Part shown: one piece after another, positions 15,173 to 20,995 of the stretch | Position numbering within the stretch: position 1 is the first letter of the stretch | Layout: each line of letters begins with the position of its first letter | Source: Flavobacteriales bacterium | GTDB taxonomy: Bacteria > Bacteroidota > Bacteroidia > JANQJC01 | Direction of reading: 5' to 3' | Assembly: GCA_028281825.1 (NCBI GenBank) | Contig: JANQJC010000050.1 | Coordinates: 1-64,000 of the forward strand | DNA length: 64,000 nucleotides | Program-made: the position numbers and the translations under genes | The notes under the pieces: generated by a model | What the model was told of the DNA's origin: nothing | What the model saw: only the letters and a program-made list of their open reading frames with translations | Database searches by the model: none

Positions 15173-16735
15173 ATGAAAGAGGAAAAGCTTAAATACCTGA
15201 AACAGATATTGGATACCCTTGATAAAAGAGAGTTAACGGTATTAGGTGACTACCTCACAGCTTTTGATTCAAGAAGCAAAGGATACAAACCCAAGACCTT
15301 AATCCTGTTCCAGCTTTTCCAGAAGTATGATGATATAGCAGACGTGTATCGCCTCTTTAAAAAGAAGATGCCTAGCGAGGATGCCATGCGCATGACTATA
15401 TATAGGTTGAAGGAAAAGATTGGAGAAAGCCTGTTGCTGGACATTAATATATCCCACGAAGAAAGTTATGACGAGTTATCAAGGGTGCGTGTGGATGTAG
15501 CCAAAAAGAAACTGGTGGCACTTATATATGCCAGCCGTGGATTAAGAGCAGAAACCATTGACATGTATAATAAGGTAATAGAACTCTCTAAAAAGTATGA
15601 GTTATACAACGACCTGGTTGAAGTGCTTTACCTAAAGCAAAGAGCGATTGGATTAACTCAGGGCAAGAAAGAGTTCGAGAAACTGGATAAGGATATTGAA
15701 CACTATGAGGTTTGCAGGGCTGCCTTCCAAAGGGCTGGAAAGATATACCATGAGATTATCCTTAACTATGGTTTCAAGGGTTTGAGCCATAGCGGAGCGG
15801 ATAAAGCCTACCAAGCCGAACTGGAAAATAAACTGGAGCAACTCAAGGCAGATTACAAGGCTACCAAGAGCGGACAGGTTGGTTATTACTACAACCTGTT
15901 AATGATTGAATACAACCAAATAACTGATAATATCGGCAAAGCCAGTAAGTATTGCCAACGTCTGGTAGAAACGGTTCAGGATAACCCTTCTGTATATCAT
16001 AGAAGAAGGCTGGGTATCGCTTACCTTAACTATTGCCAGAACGAGCTATTCAACTTTGCATTCGATTCATCACTAGAAAAAGCACATGAGGCTATCCCCT
16101 GCTTTAAGGATAACAGCCCCAACCAAAGTGTTGCCAAAGAAATGGAATTTTATGGGCATTTCTACAAAGGTGATATGCATCAGGCTGAGCAAGTAATTGC
16201 TGAACTATTGAATAATGAAAAGCTGGAGCAAAGTGGTTTCCGTTATGCCAAGTGGAGTTACCTGTTAGCCTGTGTTAACTTTATTAATGGTGTGTATAAT
16301 AAAACCCTACTCAACCTGCAGGATGCACATAAGATGGATAAAGACCGTGAAGGCTGGAACATAGGCATAAGAGTGCTTACCATACTATATGCCATAGAGA
16401 ACGAACAGCACGACTATGCTGATTCATTAATAGTTAACCTTCGCCAGTTCATTAAAGAAGGTTTAAAAGACCAGGCTGTAAGAGAAAGAGACAAAAACAT
16501 ACTGGATATACTACTACAGCTAAGAAAAACTGCTTATAACTTCAAAGAGACCGCGGAGAGTAAGCAAGCAGAACTAAACTCTCTCTACCAAGAAAAACCA
16601 CAACTAGCCTGGCACATCCAATCTCCAGAATTGATTGTTTTCCACCAATGGTTTGCAAGTAAGTTGGCTGGTAAAAAGTATAGCCCAGAGTATAGTAAAG
16701 AGGCTATTTTCAAGCTCCCCGTTGTTATTAATTAG
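15173..16735 (+). CDS. TPR-like helical repeat protein, paralogue of 47824
   Basis: A 520-aa cytoplasmic, nearly all-helical protein. The first ~95 residues form a distinct domain (LDKRELTVLGDYLTAFDSRS, LFQLFQKYDDIADVYRLFKK, AMRMTIYRLKEKIGESLLLD). The rest reads as tetratricopeptide-like helix pairs (AETIDMYNKVIELSKKYELY, GKASKYCQRLVETVQDN, HQAEQVIAELLNNEKLEQSG). The same architecture and length occur in the 47824 protein, with weak identity. No enzyme motif or signal peptide is present. Proteins of this type are common as hypothetical TPR proteins in Bacteroidota. It is preceded by a leader of nearly 280 nt carrying the direct-repeat element. Confidence 0.75.
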   Translation: MKEEKLKYLKQILDTLDKRELTVLGDYLTAFDSRSKGYKPKTLILFQLFQKYDDIADVYRLFKKKMPSEDAMRMTIYRLKEKIGESLLLDINISHEESYDELSRVRVDVAKKKLVALIYASRGLRAETIDMYNKVIELSKKYELYNDLVEVLYLKQRAIGLTQGKKEFEKLDKDIEHYEVCRAAFQRAGKIYHEIILNYGFKGLSHSGADKAYQAELENKLEQLKADYKATKSGQVGYYYNLLMIEYNQITDNIGKASKYCQRLVETVQDNPSVYHRRRLGIAYLNYCQNELFNFAFDSSLEKAHEAIPCFKDNSPNQSVAKEMEFYGHFYKGDMHQAEQVIAELLNNEKLEQSGFRYAKWSYLLACVNFINGVYNKTLLNLQDAHKMDKDREGWNIGIRVLTILYAIENEQHDYADSLIVNLRQFIKEGLKDQAVRERDKNILDILLQLRKTAYNFKETAESKQAELNSLYQEKPQLAWHIQSPELIVFHQWFASKLAGKKYSPEYSKEAIFKLPVVIN

Positions 16736-16800: not shown

Positions 16801-17089
16801 CATTTTAATACCCTTTGTTTATCGAACGAGCAACAAAAATTGGTCGTTTATCCAAAAAATATGTCGTTTGTCGATACATTTGAAACATTTTATCTTGCCT
16901 TTTTTGGAATTTATACATCCCTTTAATACCAATGATTTTATAACATTTTAATAGCATTTGAGTGTTCAAATAACTTGTTTTTTTATACATATATATATAT
17001 AGGGCATGCCACATTTGCATCAACAAAACGCAAACAAATTATTAATCGCTGAACGGCTCGCCCCCGTGAGGCACTAAAAAACAAACGCT
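16736..17089. other. Intergenic region upstream of the PanB-like operon
   Basis: These 354 nt hold the inverted repeat just described, direct-repeat site 2 (16843-16881), an AT run near 16990-17000 and a leader ending AAAAAACAAACGCTATGAG. No gene is seen on either strand. The element lies about 210 nt before the PanB-like start, so a long 5' leader is likely. Confidence 0.5.
16843..16881 (+). promoter_or_regulatory. Direct-repeat regulatory element, site 2
   Basis: GTCGTTTATCC and GTCGTTTGTCG start 20 nt apart, the second within GTCGTTTGTCGATACATTT. A further GTTTATCGAAC lies about 25 nt upstream. It is the same arrangement as site 1 before the TPR gene, so the two units may be co-regulated. 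Confidence 0.6.
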
Positions 17090-17911
17090 ATGAGCATCGT
17101 AAAAAACTTTAAAAAACTAAAGACTGACGGGCACAAGATTACCGTAGTTACTTCTTATGACTATTGGAGTGCCCGCATCTTGAGCGAAACCAATGTGGAT
17201 GGTATCTTGATTGGTGATTGCTCGTCAATGGTAATGCATGGTAATGACACCACTTTGAATTGTGATGTTGATATCATTGCGCTACACACCAGGGCTGTTG
17301 TCAAGGGTGCCAACAACAAATTCATAATCGCCGCCCTTCCGTTTATGGCTAACCGCAAAGGCTTTGAAAAAGCAATGGACAACGTTGAGACATTGATGAA
17401 AGCTGGTGCTAAAGCTGTGAAGATAGAAGGTGTTGATGGTAATGAAAGGTTAATCGCCCATTTATCAGAGTCTGGTATACCAGTAGTTGGTCATATCGGA
17501 TTAACCCCATCTCATCACCATTATGTGGGTGGTTTTAAAGTACAAGGAAAAACTCAGGAAGCAGAAGAGAAAATTGTTGCCGATGCTATCAAACTTCAAG
17601 AGCTAGGTTGCTTCTCAGTTGTGCTAGAGGCAGTTCCCCCACACGTGGGCGCCGCAGTAAGGGATGTTATTGATATACCAGTTATTGGCGTTGGCGCAGG
17701 CCCTCATGTTGATGGACAAGCATTGGTATTACAAGACATGCTTGGCATGTGCGTTGATTTCAAGCCTAAGTTTGTAAGGACTTACATGTATGGCGCTGAT
17801 TTGATGCGCGAAGCCGTTAACCAATTTGTTCAGGATGTTGCAGAGCAGGCATTCCCTTCGCAAAATGAGTGCTATGCACCTGGAAAAACACAATTAAGAA
17901 AAGTAGCTTAA
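17090..17911 (+). CDS. Divergent PanB homologue lacking one Mg-ligand Asp
   Basis: A 273-aa TIM-barrel protein clearly related to 3-methyl-2-oxobutanoate hydroxymethyltransferase (PanB, pantothenate synthesis). Shared motifs are VVTSYDYWSA, IGD (Asp43), VKIEG, GHIGLTP, GGFKVQGK, VLEAVPP (catalytic Glu equivalent kept) and PVIGVGAG. In Escherichia coli PanB, Mg is held by Asp45, Asp84 and Glu114. The Asp84 position (LADLPFM) is Ala82 here (IIAALPFM), and the GDSLGM loop reads GDCSSM. Activity may therefore be lost or changed. No panC or panD is adjacent. Two small proteins of another family follow at 36 and 47 nt spacing. It may be a repurposed PanB rather than the housekeeping enzyme. Confidence 0.88.
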   Translation: MSIVKNFKKLKTDGHKITVVTSYDYWSARILSETNVDGILIGDCSSMVMHGNDTTLNCDVDIIALHTRAVVKGANNKFIIAALPFMANRKGFEKAMDNVETLMKAGAKAVKIEGVDGNERLIAHLSESGIPVVGHIGLTPSHHHYVGGFKVQGKTQEAEEKIVADAIKLQELGCFSVVLEAVPPHVGAAVRDVIDIPVIGVGAGPHVDGQALVLQDMLGMCVDFKPKFVRTYMYGADLMREAVNQFVQDVAEQAFPSQNECYAPGKTQLRKVA

Positions 17912-17947
17912 TCACAAACACAATTAAAACACAAAACTCTTCTAGTT

Positions 17948-18442
17948 ATGGGAACTGTAATAAATCTATCAATGATAAGTGTACCTCAAAGTACACCTTC
18001 TACAATGCCAATTGGACAACAAATCAATGGCATGATTGAAAATGACATGGAATGGTTTGCCATGTTCAAAACACACATCACCGAGGCTATCGATACCAAG
18101 CCTTTCAATACTATGCTTAACAAAAACAAGAACTTGAAGGCACCAACTAATATTTTGGTTGCTATGAAAGTATTGAAAGAGTCTTTCGGCTGGACTAATA
18201 AACAATTGTTCACGCAAAGCCACAGCGATATTAAACTTCGTTTCGCCTTGGGCTTGAGTCAATCTTTCAACATTCCTTCAATGTTTGTATTCAGGGCATT
18301 TGAAAATATGTTGGAAGACTACAAGTCAAACACTGGTAATGATTTGGTTAAAGAAGCTATTGAAAACTTAGCTAAAACTCAGGCTCCCGTATTTAAGGTA
18401 GGCGAGAAAAGATTAATGCTTTGGGCAACTAAAGTAGCGTAA
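17948..18442 (+). CDS. Small protein resembling a transposase N-terminal (DUF772-like) domain, copy 1
   Basis: A 164-aa protein. Residues 30-120 follow the pattern of the N-terminal helical domain of IS5/IS1182 transposases: an aliphatic helix after KAPTNILVAMKVLKESFGWT, then NKQLFTQSHSDIKLRFALGL, then IPSMFVFRAFENMLEDY, which corresponds to the family's 'p..stl.rFR..L' segment. No catalytic DDE domain follows. The protein aligns along its length with the 18490 protein, so it is not simply a truncated transposase. It is the second gene of the PanB-like unit. A DNA-binding or adaptor role is inferred. The similarity was judged by eye. Confidence 0.6.
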   Translation: MGTVINLSMISVPQSTPSTMPIGQQINGMIENDMEWFAMFKTHITEAIDTKPFNTMLNKNKNLKAPTNILVAMKVLKESFGWTNKQLFTQSHSDIKLRFALGLSQSFNIPSMFVFRAFENMLEDYKSNTGNDLVKEAIENLAKTQAPVFKVGEKRLMLWATKVA

Positions 18443-18489
18443 TTGGAAAGTGGGGTTAAATAATTTTTAAACACAAAAAACACCATACT

Positions 18490-18936
18490 ATGAAATCCTC
18501 TCTAACTATTGTAAAGTCACCCAAGCAAACCAATGTGGTTGAATGGTTTGAAACAACCAGAAAAAACATTGAGAATGCAGACCTATCTAAATTTGAAATG
18601 CTGTACAGCTTGTTTTACAACAAGCCAAGCAAAAATATAGAAGCATTGGTAACCATGAAAACCTTACAAGAAAATTTTGATTGGAAGGATGGTGAAGTAT
18701 TTAAAAATTACAGCAGATTAACAAGTATGTTAATTCACTTAGGGCGAATGGTGAAGCGAGAAGAAACCCCTACCCTGTTTGAGTTTGCAACCTTCAGCAA
18801 ACTTTTGAAGAAGTTGAAAAGAGAAACAGGAGATGACTTAATAAAGGAAATCTTGAATGATTTTTACAATAATGGTAACATTATAGCGTTTGTACCGTAT
18901 ATAGCAACACCTTCCGCTGCAACTAGGGCAGCATAA
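18490..18936 (+). CDS. Small protein resembling a transposase N-terminal (DUF772-like) domain, copy 2
   Basis: A 148-aa paralogue of the preceding protein. Shared landmarks are VEWFETTRKNI at the start, KPSKNIEALVTMKTLQENFD, then a helix ending MLIHLGRM, TPTLFEFATFSKLLKKLK, and TGDDLIKEILND, matching TGNDLVKEAIEN in the first copy. No signal peptide or catalytic motif is seen. It is the last gene of the PanB-like unit, followed by a strong terminator. Two divergent copies side by side suggest a heterodimer or a duplicated adaptor. Confidence 0.6.
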   Translation: MKSSLTIVKSPKQTNVVEWFETTRKNIENADLSKFEMLYSLFYNKPSKNIEALVTMKTLQENFDWKDGEVFKNYSRLTSMLIHLGRMVKREETPTLFEFATFSKLLKKLKRETGDDLIKEILNDFYNNGNIIAFVPYIATPSAATRAA

Positions 18937-18955
18937 AGGTTTGGTTAGGTTAGTT

Positions 18956-18984
18956 GGAAGCCGGTCTGAGGAGGCCGGCTTTCC
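18956..18984 (+). terminator. Terminator of the PanB-like operon
   Basis: GGAAGCCGG and CCGGCTTTCC form 9-10 bp arms with a 10-nt loop (TCTGAGGAGG), 20 nt after the last gene. Confidence 0.75.
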
Positions 18985-19060
18985 GATTCTATATACCTCT
19001 CATTGTTTATACATCTATCCTTCTACTTCCTTATATTAGCGGTTTAGAAGCACAGCTTAA

Positions 19061-20995
19061 ATGATAAAAAGGTTATTGGTTTTAGGAGTATTATTAACTA
19101 CCATACTTCTATTGAGTGTGCAGTTTAGGCAAATGAATGAAGCCCAAGCCTTCCATACCAAAGATGAACTAGCTTATTTCAAAGCCATCTTTCGGGGTAG
19201 TAATGGCCTACCTGAAGCAAACAATACACTATTCGCAGCCTCTGGCAAATGTGTTACTTGTCATGGTTACGACTCTGACCTGATTGCTAGTATAGATAAT
19301 AATGATGTGGATGTGAACGTGGTAGATGACTGGCGAAGCACCATGATGGCCAACTCAGCCAAAGACCCTTTTTGGAGAGCTAAAGTAAGTCATGAAGTAT
19401 TGGTTAACCCAGGTCATCAAACAGAATTGGAAGATAAATGTACTAGCTGCCATGCACCTATGGGTCACTTTAACGCCAAGCATATTGGACAAACCCACTA
19501 CTCTATTGCGGATATGGTTGGTGACCCAGTGGCATTAGATGGTGTTTCATGCAATGCTTGCCACCAAATAAAGAATGATTCATTAGGGCTTTTATTCTCA
19601 GGAAACGTAAAGTATGATACCGACTACTTCCTTTATGGCCCATACCCTAACCCAGTTGGACCTCCAATGATACAAATTGGATATGAGCCTATTTACAGCA
19701 CTCACATCAATAATGCCGGGCTATGTGCATCTTGCCACACGCTGATTACCGAAACTGCTGATACCTTTGGCAATCTAACAGGTGACCAATTTGTTGAACA
19801 GGCTACCTACCATGAATGGGTAAACTCATCCTACAATAATAATATCAGTTGCCAGGGTTGTCATATCCCAAGAATACAGGATAGTATTATTATCTCAGCT
19901 GATCCACCAGACCTACCTAAACGCAGCCCTTATGGCTTACACCAGTTAGTTGGGGGTAACACTTTTATGCTTAGGATGTTCCAGGAAAACTTGAATAACT
20001 TGGGTATAACTGCAACCATTGAGCAGTTTGATTCAACTATCGCAAGAACAGAACGAATGCTGAGATATCAGACAATGGATATTGAGCTAACTGAAACTTC
20101 AAGAACTACCGACACTGTTTTTTATAGCCTGAAGCTAACCAATAAAGCGGGGCATAAATTCCCTTCAGGATATCCATCACGCAGGGCTTTTGTTGAATTT
20201 GTTGTAATGAACAGCACCTTAGATACCCTCTTTCGCTCAGGTATTTTGAATTACAACTATGAAGTAAGTGGGCACAACGCCGACTATGAACCACACTACA
20301 ATATGATAAATCAACCTGACCAAGCACAGATATATGAAATGGTGATGGCTGACGTAAATGGAAACAAAACAACTGTACTTGAACGGGCCAAAGAGCCGCT
20401 GAAAGATAATCGCATACCGCCATTAGGTTTCACAACCACTCATTTTGCTTATGACACTACCAAAATTGCTGGCAATGCTTTGAGTGATGCTGACTTTAAT
20501 ATTGAGAACAGCCAGGAAGGCTCTGGAACTGATATAGTGCATTATCACGTACCTCTGAATGGCTACACAGGTAATTTAAACATAACTGCTAGAGTTTATT
20601 ACCAACCGGTACCACCCAAATGGAACGAGGAAATGTTTAGCTACAATTCAACCGAGATAGATGCCTTCAGGGATTTATACCAAAGCGCTGATGGTTCTCC
20701 TTCTCTGGTAGCTGAAACAGCACTGGGAGATATCACAATAGGAATGGATGAAGTTGAGTTAAAGGTGAGCATATACCCTAACCCATTCAGCGATTTTGTT
20801 GTAGCACAGTATCAAGGCAAAGAAGTTTTGGACTTTATCTTGTATGATATAAGTGGCAAACTAATCCTTAGGCAACCTGTACAATCAAGGCAAAGGATTG
20901 ACTTAAGCTCTCAAGGTATTAAGCCGGGAGTTTATTTGTATCATATAACTAAAGAAAGGAAGTCTGTGAAATCTGGCAAACTGGTGAAGCATTAA
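19061..20995 (+). CDS. Pentaheme c-type cytochrome with T9SS sorting domain
   Basis: A 644-aa exported multihaem protein. After a signal/anchor helix (LLVLGVLLTTILLLSVQF) there are five CXXCH haem sites: CVTCH at 64, CTSCH at 127, CNACH at 164, CASCH at 222 and CQGCH at 264. The spacing and the intervening DPFWRAKVSHEV and YGPYPNPVG segments recall the cytochrome c-554-like family. The remainder is a beta-rich domain, and the C-terminus is a T9SS type A sorting domain (VSIYPNPFSDFVV ... KPGVYLYHI). It would sit on the cell surface as an electron-transfer protein. It is convergent with the next gene; their ends overlap by 3-4 nt. The electron partner is unknown. Confidence 0.92.
   Translation: MIKRLLVLGVLLTTILLLSVQFRQMNEAQAFHTKDELAYFKAIFRGSNGLPEANNTLFAASGKCVTCHGYDSDLIASIDNNDVDVNVVDDWRSTMMANSAKDPFWRAKVSHEVLVNPGHQTELEDKCTSCHAPMGHFNAKHIGQTHYSIADMVGDPVALDGVSCNACHQIKNDSLGLLFSGNVKYDTDYFLYGPYPNPVGPPMIQIGYEPIYSTHINNAGLCASCHTLITETADTFGNLTGDQFVEQATYHEWVNSSYNNNISCQGCHIPRIQDSIIISADPPDLPKRSPYGLHQLVGGNTFMLRMFQENLNNLGITATIEQFDSTIARTERMLRYQTMDIELTETSRTTDTVFYSLKLTNKAGHKFPSGYPSRRAFVEFVVMNSTLDTLFRSGILNYNYEVSGHNADYEPHYNMINQPDQAQIYEMVMADVNGNKTTVLERAKEPLKDNRIPPLGFTTTHFAYDTTKIAGNALSDADFNIENSQEGSGTDIVHYHVPLNGYTGNLNITARVYYQPVPPKWNEEMFSYNSTEIDAFRDLYQSADGSPSLVAETALGDITIGMDEVELKVSIYPNPFSDFVVAQYQGKEVLDFILYDISGKLILRQPVQSRQRIDLSSQGIKPGVYLYHITKERKSVKSGKLVKH

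Follow-up and report, generated by a model that had tools for sequence, protein, structure and literature searches.

In ketopantoate hydroxymethyltransferase (PanB), residues D45, K112, E114, H136 and E181 (E. coli numbering throughout) are catalytic and substrate residues, E181 being catalytic, and D84 is a Mg2+ ligand in the E. coli enzyme. In the family closest to the proteins described here, f83, the neighbors of panB are genes that we take, from their translations, to be panC and coaBC. One article states that a metal ion aids formation of the enol (PMC7770189).

Here we describe a locus in which a PanB paralogue, which we call PanB2, precedes genes for small proteins that resemble the N-terminal part of a transposase. 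It lies in a 64,000-nucleotide stretch of DNA from a Flavobacteriales bacterium, and this whole stretch is called the window below. The pairing of panB2 with a small gene was not described in the literature searched, which included passages of PMC4814558, PMC6193735 and PMC7770189.

RESULTS

Layout of the locus

The features are collected in Table 1. The initial annotation had described a PanB homologue followed by two paralogous small proteins, and the open reading frames, the gaps of 36 nt (panB2 to small gene 1) and 47 nt (18443-18489, small gene 1 to small gene 2), the match of PanB2 to PF02548 (E 1.3e-91) and the identity between the two small proteins all agree with it. It also stated that the locus lacks panC and panD, and neither was noticed among the ORFs neighboring panB2. 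As for the strong terminator that it placed behind the last gene, the hairpin is real; its U tract is short, and it is missing from the list of the consensus terminator scan. Rfam models matched nothing in the window and gave sub-threshold matches alone in six related loci.

Table 1. Features of the panB2 locus (positions in the window)
Feature	Position	Strand	Size and evidence
520-aa TPR-like gene, upstream context; module membership uncertain	15173..16735	+	synteny in f1/f10, weak TPR matches
Direct-repeat site TCGTTTATC-N11-TCGTTTGTC, candidate operator, 246 nt 5' of panB2 start	16844..16872	+	pattern search, 6 genomes
panB2, ketopantoate hydroxymethyltransferase paralogue, S46C and D84A	17090..17911	+	273 aa; PF02548, TIGR00222, clade and residues
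Small protein 1, IS1182-like transposase N-terminal part, DUF772-type, without catalytic domain	17948..18442	+	164 aa; PF05598 matches of orthologues, tblastn, alignment
Small protein 2, divergent duplicate of the preceding protein	18490..18936	+	148 aa; homologous to small protein 1, 30% identity, E 5.2e-9
Strong hairpin 3' of last gene, likely transcript end	18956..18984	+	18937-19010 folds at -27.6 kcal/mol, z -3.74

The 520-aa protein is 43% identical to an orthologue encoded 5' of panB2 at locus L025, and its gene is syntenic in this position in the window's family (f1) and in f10; in f4 the orthologue is unlinked. Directly 3' of the module, at 19061-20995, lies a gene whose product resembles multihaem cytochrome c and has a secretion sorting domain at its C terminus. 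All three proteins of the module end in -VA or -AA (17900-17908, 18430-18439 and 18925-18933), as do the PanB2 proteins that have a partner gene, and the PanB2 proteins of Methylophilaceae end in K, KK or T. The shared ending is possibly due to chance or possibly a degron-like tail.

Conservation of the pair

The pairing of panB2 with the small gene in some Bacteroidota is real and under selection. Searches for the small gene covered 60 relatives, 395 genomes of the class and 7 genomes of family f4, and recovered it in 12 genomes from three families of one class (the window's genome in f1, six genomes in f4 and five in f10), at one locus per genome. panB2 lies directly 5' of it in all 12, i.e., in 11 genomes besides the window's; this count includes G003, where panB2 is split across contigs C81 and C80. 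The small gene is present in six of the seven f4 genomes, the seventh being 68% complete, and in five of the nine f10 genomes of the class sample, with no match in the other four. We took a further weak class match, in G299 (E 0.0047, within a frame of 1039 aa), to be due to chance, since its locus has long ORFs and no panB2. In nine pairwise comparisons of the small gene, dN/dS was 0.068-0.263; in seven of panB2, it was 0.014-0.048. The second small gene was found in the window's genome alone, no second copy being present in the other genomes.

In f1 and f10, panB2 and the small gene are separated by 30-36 nt, whereas the f4 genomes have 252-445 nt between them. Because the small gene of f4 lies this far behind panB2, past an array of hairpins, tight co-expression is not assured there. 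The array is a string of RNA-type hairpins with a constant CCGTAA loop and variable stems. Stems of at least 5 pairs accompany CCCGTAAG in 27 of 29 cases in six f4 loci; with viral contigs and the window taken together as background, the count was 12 of 195. Hairpins with a CAACCC loop are interleaved (L006:1132-1383, L012:1056-1500 and L005:223-540; also L010, L011 and L015), and a long hairpin stands at the end of the array, before the small gene. An 18-mer from the array, with up to 2 mismatches, had no further occurrence in any of the four f4 genomes that were searched, and among the matches listed for the tandem-loop pattern, every one from f4 sits at the panB2 locus. Tandem CCCGTAAG pairs were found in 48 of the 395 class genomes, where they sit at various loci; hairpins of this type are thus general rather than bound to panB2. 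Tandem CCGTAA-loop hairpins were seen at L115-L144 (e.g., L128:1501-1893, L129:1169-1539 and L130:1058-1551), some families having at least 10 copies at one locus. We dropped the array as a part of the mechanism, f1 and f10 being without it.

PanB2 forms a clade with an altered active site

By the curated equivalog model TIGR00222, PanB2 of the window scores as a PanB (270.9 bits against a cut-off of 207.55). The same genome has a second panB on contig C75, canonical at all residues checked. In an alignment with 15 PanB2 rows, the position of S46 is C in every row, and that of D84 is A in 14 and S in one; D45, K112, E114, H136 and E181, five of the seven active-site positions checked, are retained in all 15. 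The 17 non-PanB2 rows of the tree have S46 without exception and D84 in 16 cases, the remaining row, from f83, having Y. PanB2 forms a single clade of 15 rows (support 100/100) in a tree of 32 rows, in which, according to a warning of the program, some of the long branches meet; the clade lies inside the PanB of family f83, which is its nearest outgroup.

A scan of genome contigs with the PanB2 alignment gave 19 loci, one of which (L039) is a canonical PanB and was left out. The 18 PanB2 loci comprise eight from f4 and f10, six of the Methylophilaceae type (our shorthand for records labelled Methylophilaceae, Methylophilales, Methylotenera, Methylopumilus or Burkholderiales) and four from Saprospiraceae. 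Searched by tblastn with 13 small proteins, seven of the eight f4/f10 loci had the partner gene, L028 ending within panB2; it was found at none of the 10 Methylophilaceae and Saprospiraceae loci, of which L031 extends about 800 nt 3' of panB2. Methylophilaceae PanB2 is 83-88% identical to that of f10, and its rows (loci L029-L034) are nested within those of f10 (support 99/97). Hence, it seems that PanB2 crossed phyla and the partner gene did not. Two Methylophilaceae genomes have S at the position of E181 in their other PanB (L085 and L086) and may therefore rely on PanB2.

A convergent gene for a 5-formyl-THF cyclo-ligase-like protein adjoins panB2 at L029, L032, L033 and L034 (Pfam assignment at L029). 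The Methylophilaceae panB2 neighbors (5-formyl-THF cyclo-ligase, CMAS-type synthase and TonB-dependent receptor) led us to consider a link to light or folate, which we set aside since most neighbors vary by locus.

The small proteins derive from a transposase N terminus

PF05598 (DUF772) was matched by 11 of 13 members of the small-protein family at E ≤ 10, with a best value of 2.1e-7; neither small protein of the window matches it alone at this threshold, nor any other Pfam family convincingly, and their membership comes through homology to the family. In a PF05598 search of 20 genomes, two small genes linked to panB2, those of G003 and G009, exceeded the curated cut-off. By tblastn against plasmids, haloarchaeal transposases were matched by small protein 1 (E 4e-4, 27% over about 105 residues, four records) and by an f4 small protein (E 4e-8), and an f10 member and small protein 2 gave no match. 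In BLASTP searches of a four-protein database, the f10 member matched one haloarchaeal transposase at 3.8e-13, and small protein 2 matched the L104 transposase at 1.6e-6. The matched haloarchaeal transposases carry DUF772 and a DDE domain and show their closest resemblance to IS1182 (125 and 134 bits; cut-off 270). Judged by these alignments, the close transposase subfamily of the small protein is haloarchaeal; the IS5/IS1182 proteins of relatives went unrecognized by an HMM built from 11 small proteins (best E 0.11).

Where the transposases read ETGRDLLHEV ... QRMDST, the small proteins read TG.(N/D)L..E ... RLMLWA and then end. The strand with QRMDST in the transposases is NRLMLWA in the small proteins, and the position of its Asp is not Asp in the aligned rows. 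In our reading of the DDE fold, this Asp would be the first catalytic one. The small protein is thus a transposase N terminus that breaks off at the presumed first catalytic strand and has lost the Asp. A DDE catalytic domain, by the IS1182-type criterion, is absent from the small proteins. Their C-terminal tail diverges from the transposase sequence and is among the best-conserved parts in 12 of the 13 members.

For the small proteins, searches with PADLOC, PHROGs and NCBIfam were uninformative. Viral contigs yielded no relative of either PanB2 or the small protein by the method used; none of the small protein was found in phage records, and none in the initial scan of genome contigs with the window's small protein. 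Two AlphaFold models are helical with a pLDDT of 68-69; with these as queries, Foldseek found no match in the PDB and BFVD at E ≤ 0.001. VIA-align placed chains of MarR, DnaA domain IV, TrpR and Fur amid unrelated ones, with Z values of 2.5-4.7; the best value of 4.7 lies below the level that the tool regards as telling, and we gave these matches no weight.

A direct repeat upstream of panB2

The pattern TCGTTTRTC-N9..14-TCGTTTRTC occurs once per genome in six of six genomes (G000 and five of f4), always 5' of panB2; the reversed control pattern has a single occurrence in the same six, in G003. We compared 20 promoters, 11 with a partner gene and nine without. The exact 9-mer is present in nine of the 11 partner-bearing promoters and none of the nine partnerless ones. 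With up to one mismatch on the plus strand it is found in all 11, at about -240 to -260, against none of nine; on the minus strand, a one-mismatch 9-mer occurs in two of the nine partnerless promoters. By a Markov control, the exact 9-mer is expected by chance in 0-1% of cases per promoter. The f10 promoters have a single copy. Promoters are related within families, and the co-occurrence in three families therefore amounts to few independent events linking site and partner.

The repeats are spaced 11-12 nt apart, within the range of LytTR sites; the site is far upstream, and its sequence is only partly like the LytTR consensus. For LytTR-family regulators, PMC6193735 gives repeats spaced 11-13 nt. 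Because the spacing fits such sites, a regulator of this family has to be weighed as the owner of the repeat.

DISCUSSION

Our tentative preference, for which we put the chances a little short of even, is that the locus is a conserved operon joining an altered PanB to the domesticated N-terminal domain of a transposase, the latter being a candidate DNA-binding protein dedicated to the panB2 promoter. The small protein may retain the ability of the transposase's end-recognition domain to bind DNA. It would bind the direct repeat 5' of panB2, or similar sites, and would control its own operon, the genes presumably being co-transcribed. Its ancestry, the selection on it and the genome-unique site suggest such a role at the promoter. 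PanB2 would carry out a PanB-like hydroxymethyl transfer or enolisation with altered handling of metal or substrate, as the pattern of its active site suggests. Small protein 2, a lineage-specific duplicate, might tune the control of the operon. Against this reading stand the single 9-mer of f10, the four of nine f10 genomes that gave no match to the small gene, the LytTR-like spacing, the wide gap in f4, the small number of independent events and the fold searches, which returned no telling match.

The initial annotation had proposed a domesticated DNA-binding pair associated with a modified metabolic enzyme and had made this proposal depend on a link to DUF772 and on a gene order shared with relatives. 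The link appears in the PF05598 matches of the family and in the similarity of small protein 1 to haloarchaeal transposases, and the gene order recurs in other families. The canonical panB that it suggested looking for exists, and the loss of the metal ligand D84 throughout the PanB2 clade bears out a modified enzyme. Domestication fits the missing catalytic part together with purifying selection. The pair as a unit is unsupported because the second copy was seen in the window's genome alone; overall, the interpretation is supported in part.

PanB2 could be a working ketopantoate hydroxymethyltransferase isozyme for special conditions, regulated by the small protein. This is compatible with the operon reading above, and we consider it somewhat unlikely. 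The active-site positions unchanged in all PanB2 rows, including catalytic E181, and the TIGR00222 score above the cut-off argue for it, as do the two Methylophilaceae genomes, where PanB2 could be the working copy. However, the Mg2+ ligand is A or S clade-wide, and the Bacteroidota hosts tested already have an intact canonical PanB.

We judge it unlikely that the small protein is a protein partner of PanB2, such as a subunit or chaperone, in which the helical transposase domain has been reused for protein contact instead of DNA. Transposase domains often make protein contacts too, the order of the two genes never varies among the 12 genomes, and the tail that is unlike the transposase is highly conserved. 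The PanB2 proteins of Methylophilaceae and Saprospiraceae, however, have no partner within their loci, and PanB2 seems independent of it because the partnerless Methylophilaceae enzymes are so close to those of f10.

It is also improbable, in our view, that the upstream repeat belongs to another regulator, of the LytTR family or the 520-aa protein, and that the role of the small protein is unrelated to it. In f1 and f10 the 520-aa gene has a syntenic place upstream, and the spacing matches LytTR sites as given in PMC6193735. However, the site is present in f4 although the 520-aa gene is unlinked there, and the repeat pair occurs at no further place in the six genomes.

More doubtful still is a role of PanB2 as a moonlighting enzyme or a sensor of a metabolite, with its ligand state gating the transposase-derived DNA-binding protein at one genomic site. 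If true, an enzyme of a vitamin pathway and a captured domain of an insertion sequence would together form a one-enzyme, one-site regulatory switch. That the small genes are decaying transposon remnants standing behind panB2 by chance is refuted in substance: they are truncated transposases, but their dN/dS is well below 1, and their end point, tail and gene order are conserved across three families.

Under the operon reading that we prefer, the locus would be a bacterial example of a domesticated transposase with ties to a named enzyme. Several genomes have orthologues and the candidate DNA site is defined, so that the recruitment of an insertion-sequence domain into a host gene could be put to the test. 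Moreover, family models label the D84-less PanB2 as PanB, and pathway reconstructions could be misled.

Compared with PanB (TIGR00222 and PF02548; E. coli 1M3U and Mycobacterium tuberculosis 1OY0), PanB2 is alike in its whole-length homology and in most active-site residues. It differs in the clade-wide changes of S46 to C and of D84 to A or S, in being an extra copy alongside a canonical PanB and in being accompanied by a partner gene instead of pan genes. The panB-panC-coaBC operons of f83, also in Bacteroidota, are canonical, with D84 in seven of eight PanB checked and Y in one, and no small protein was found at the four f83 panB loci tested. With IS1182-family transposases (PF05598 and NF033551) the small protein shares an N-terminal stretch of about 105 residues, which reaches as far as the first DDE strand. 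Unlike them, it has no catalytic domain and a residue other than Asp at the first catalytic position, and it was found solely behind panB2, singly or as a tandem pair.
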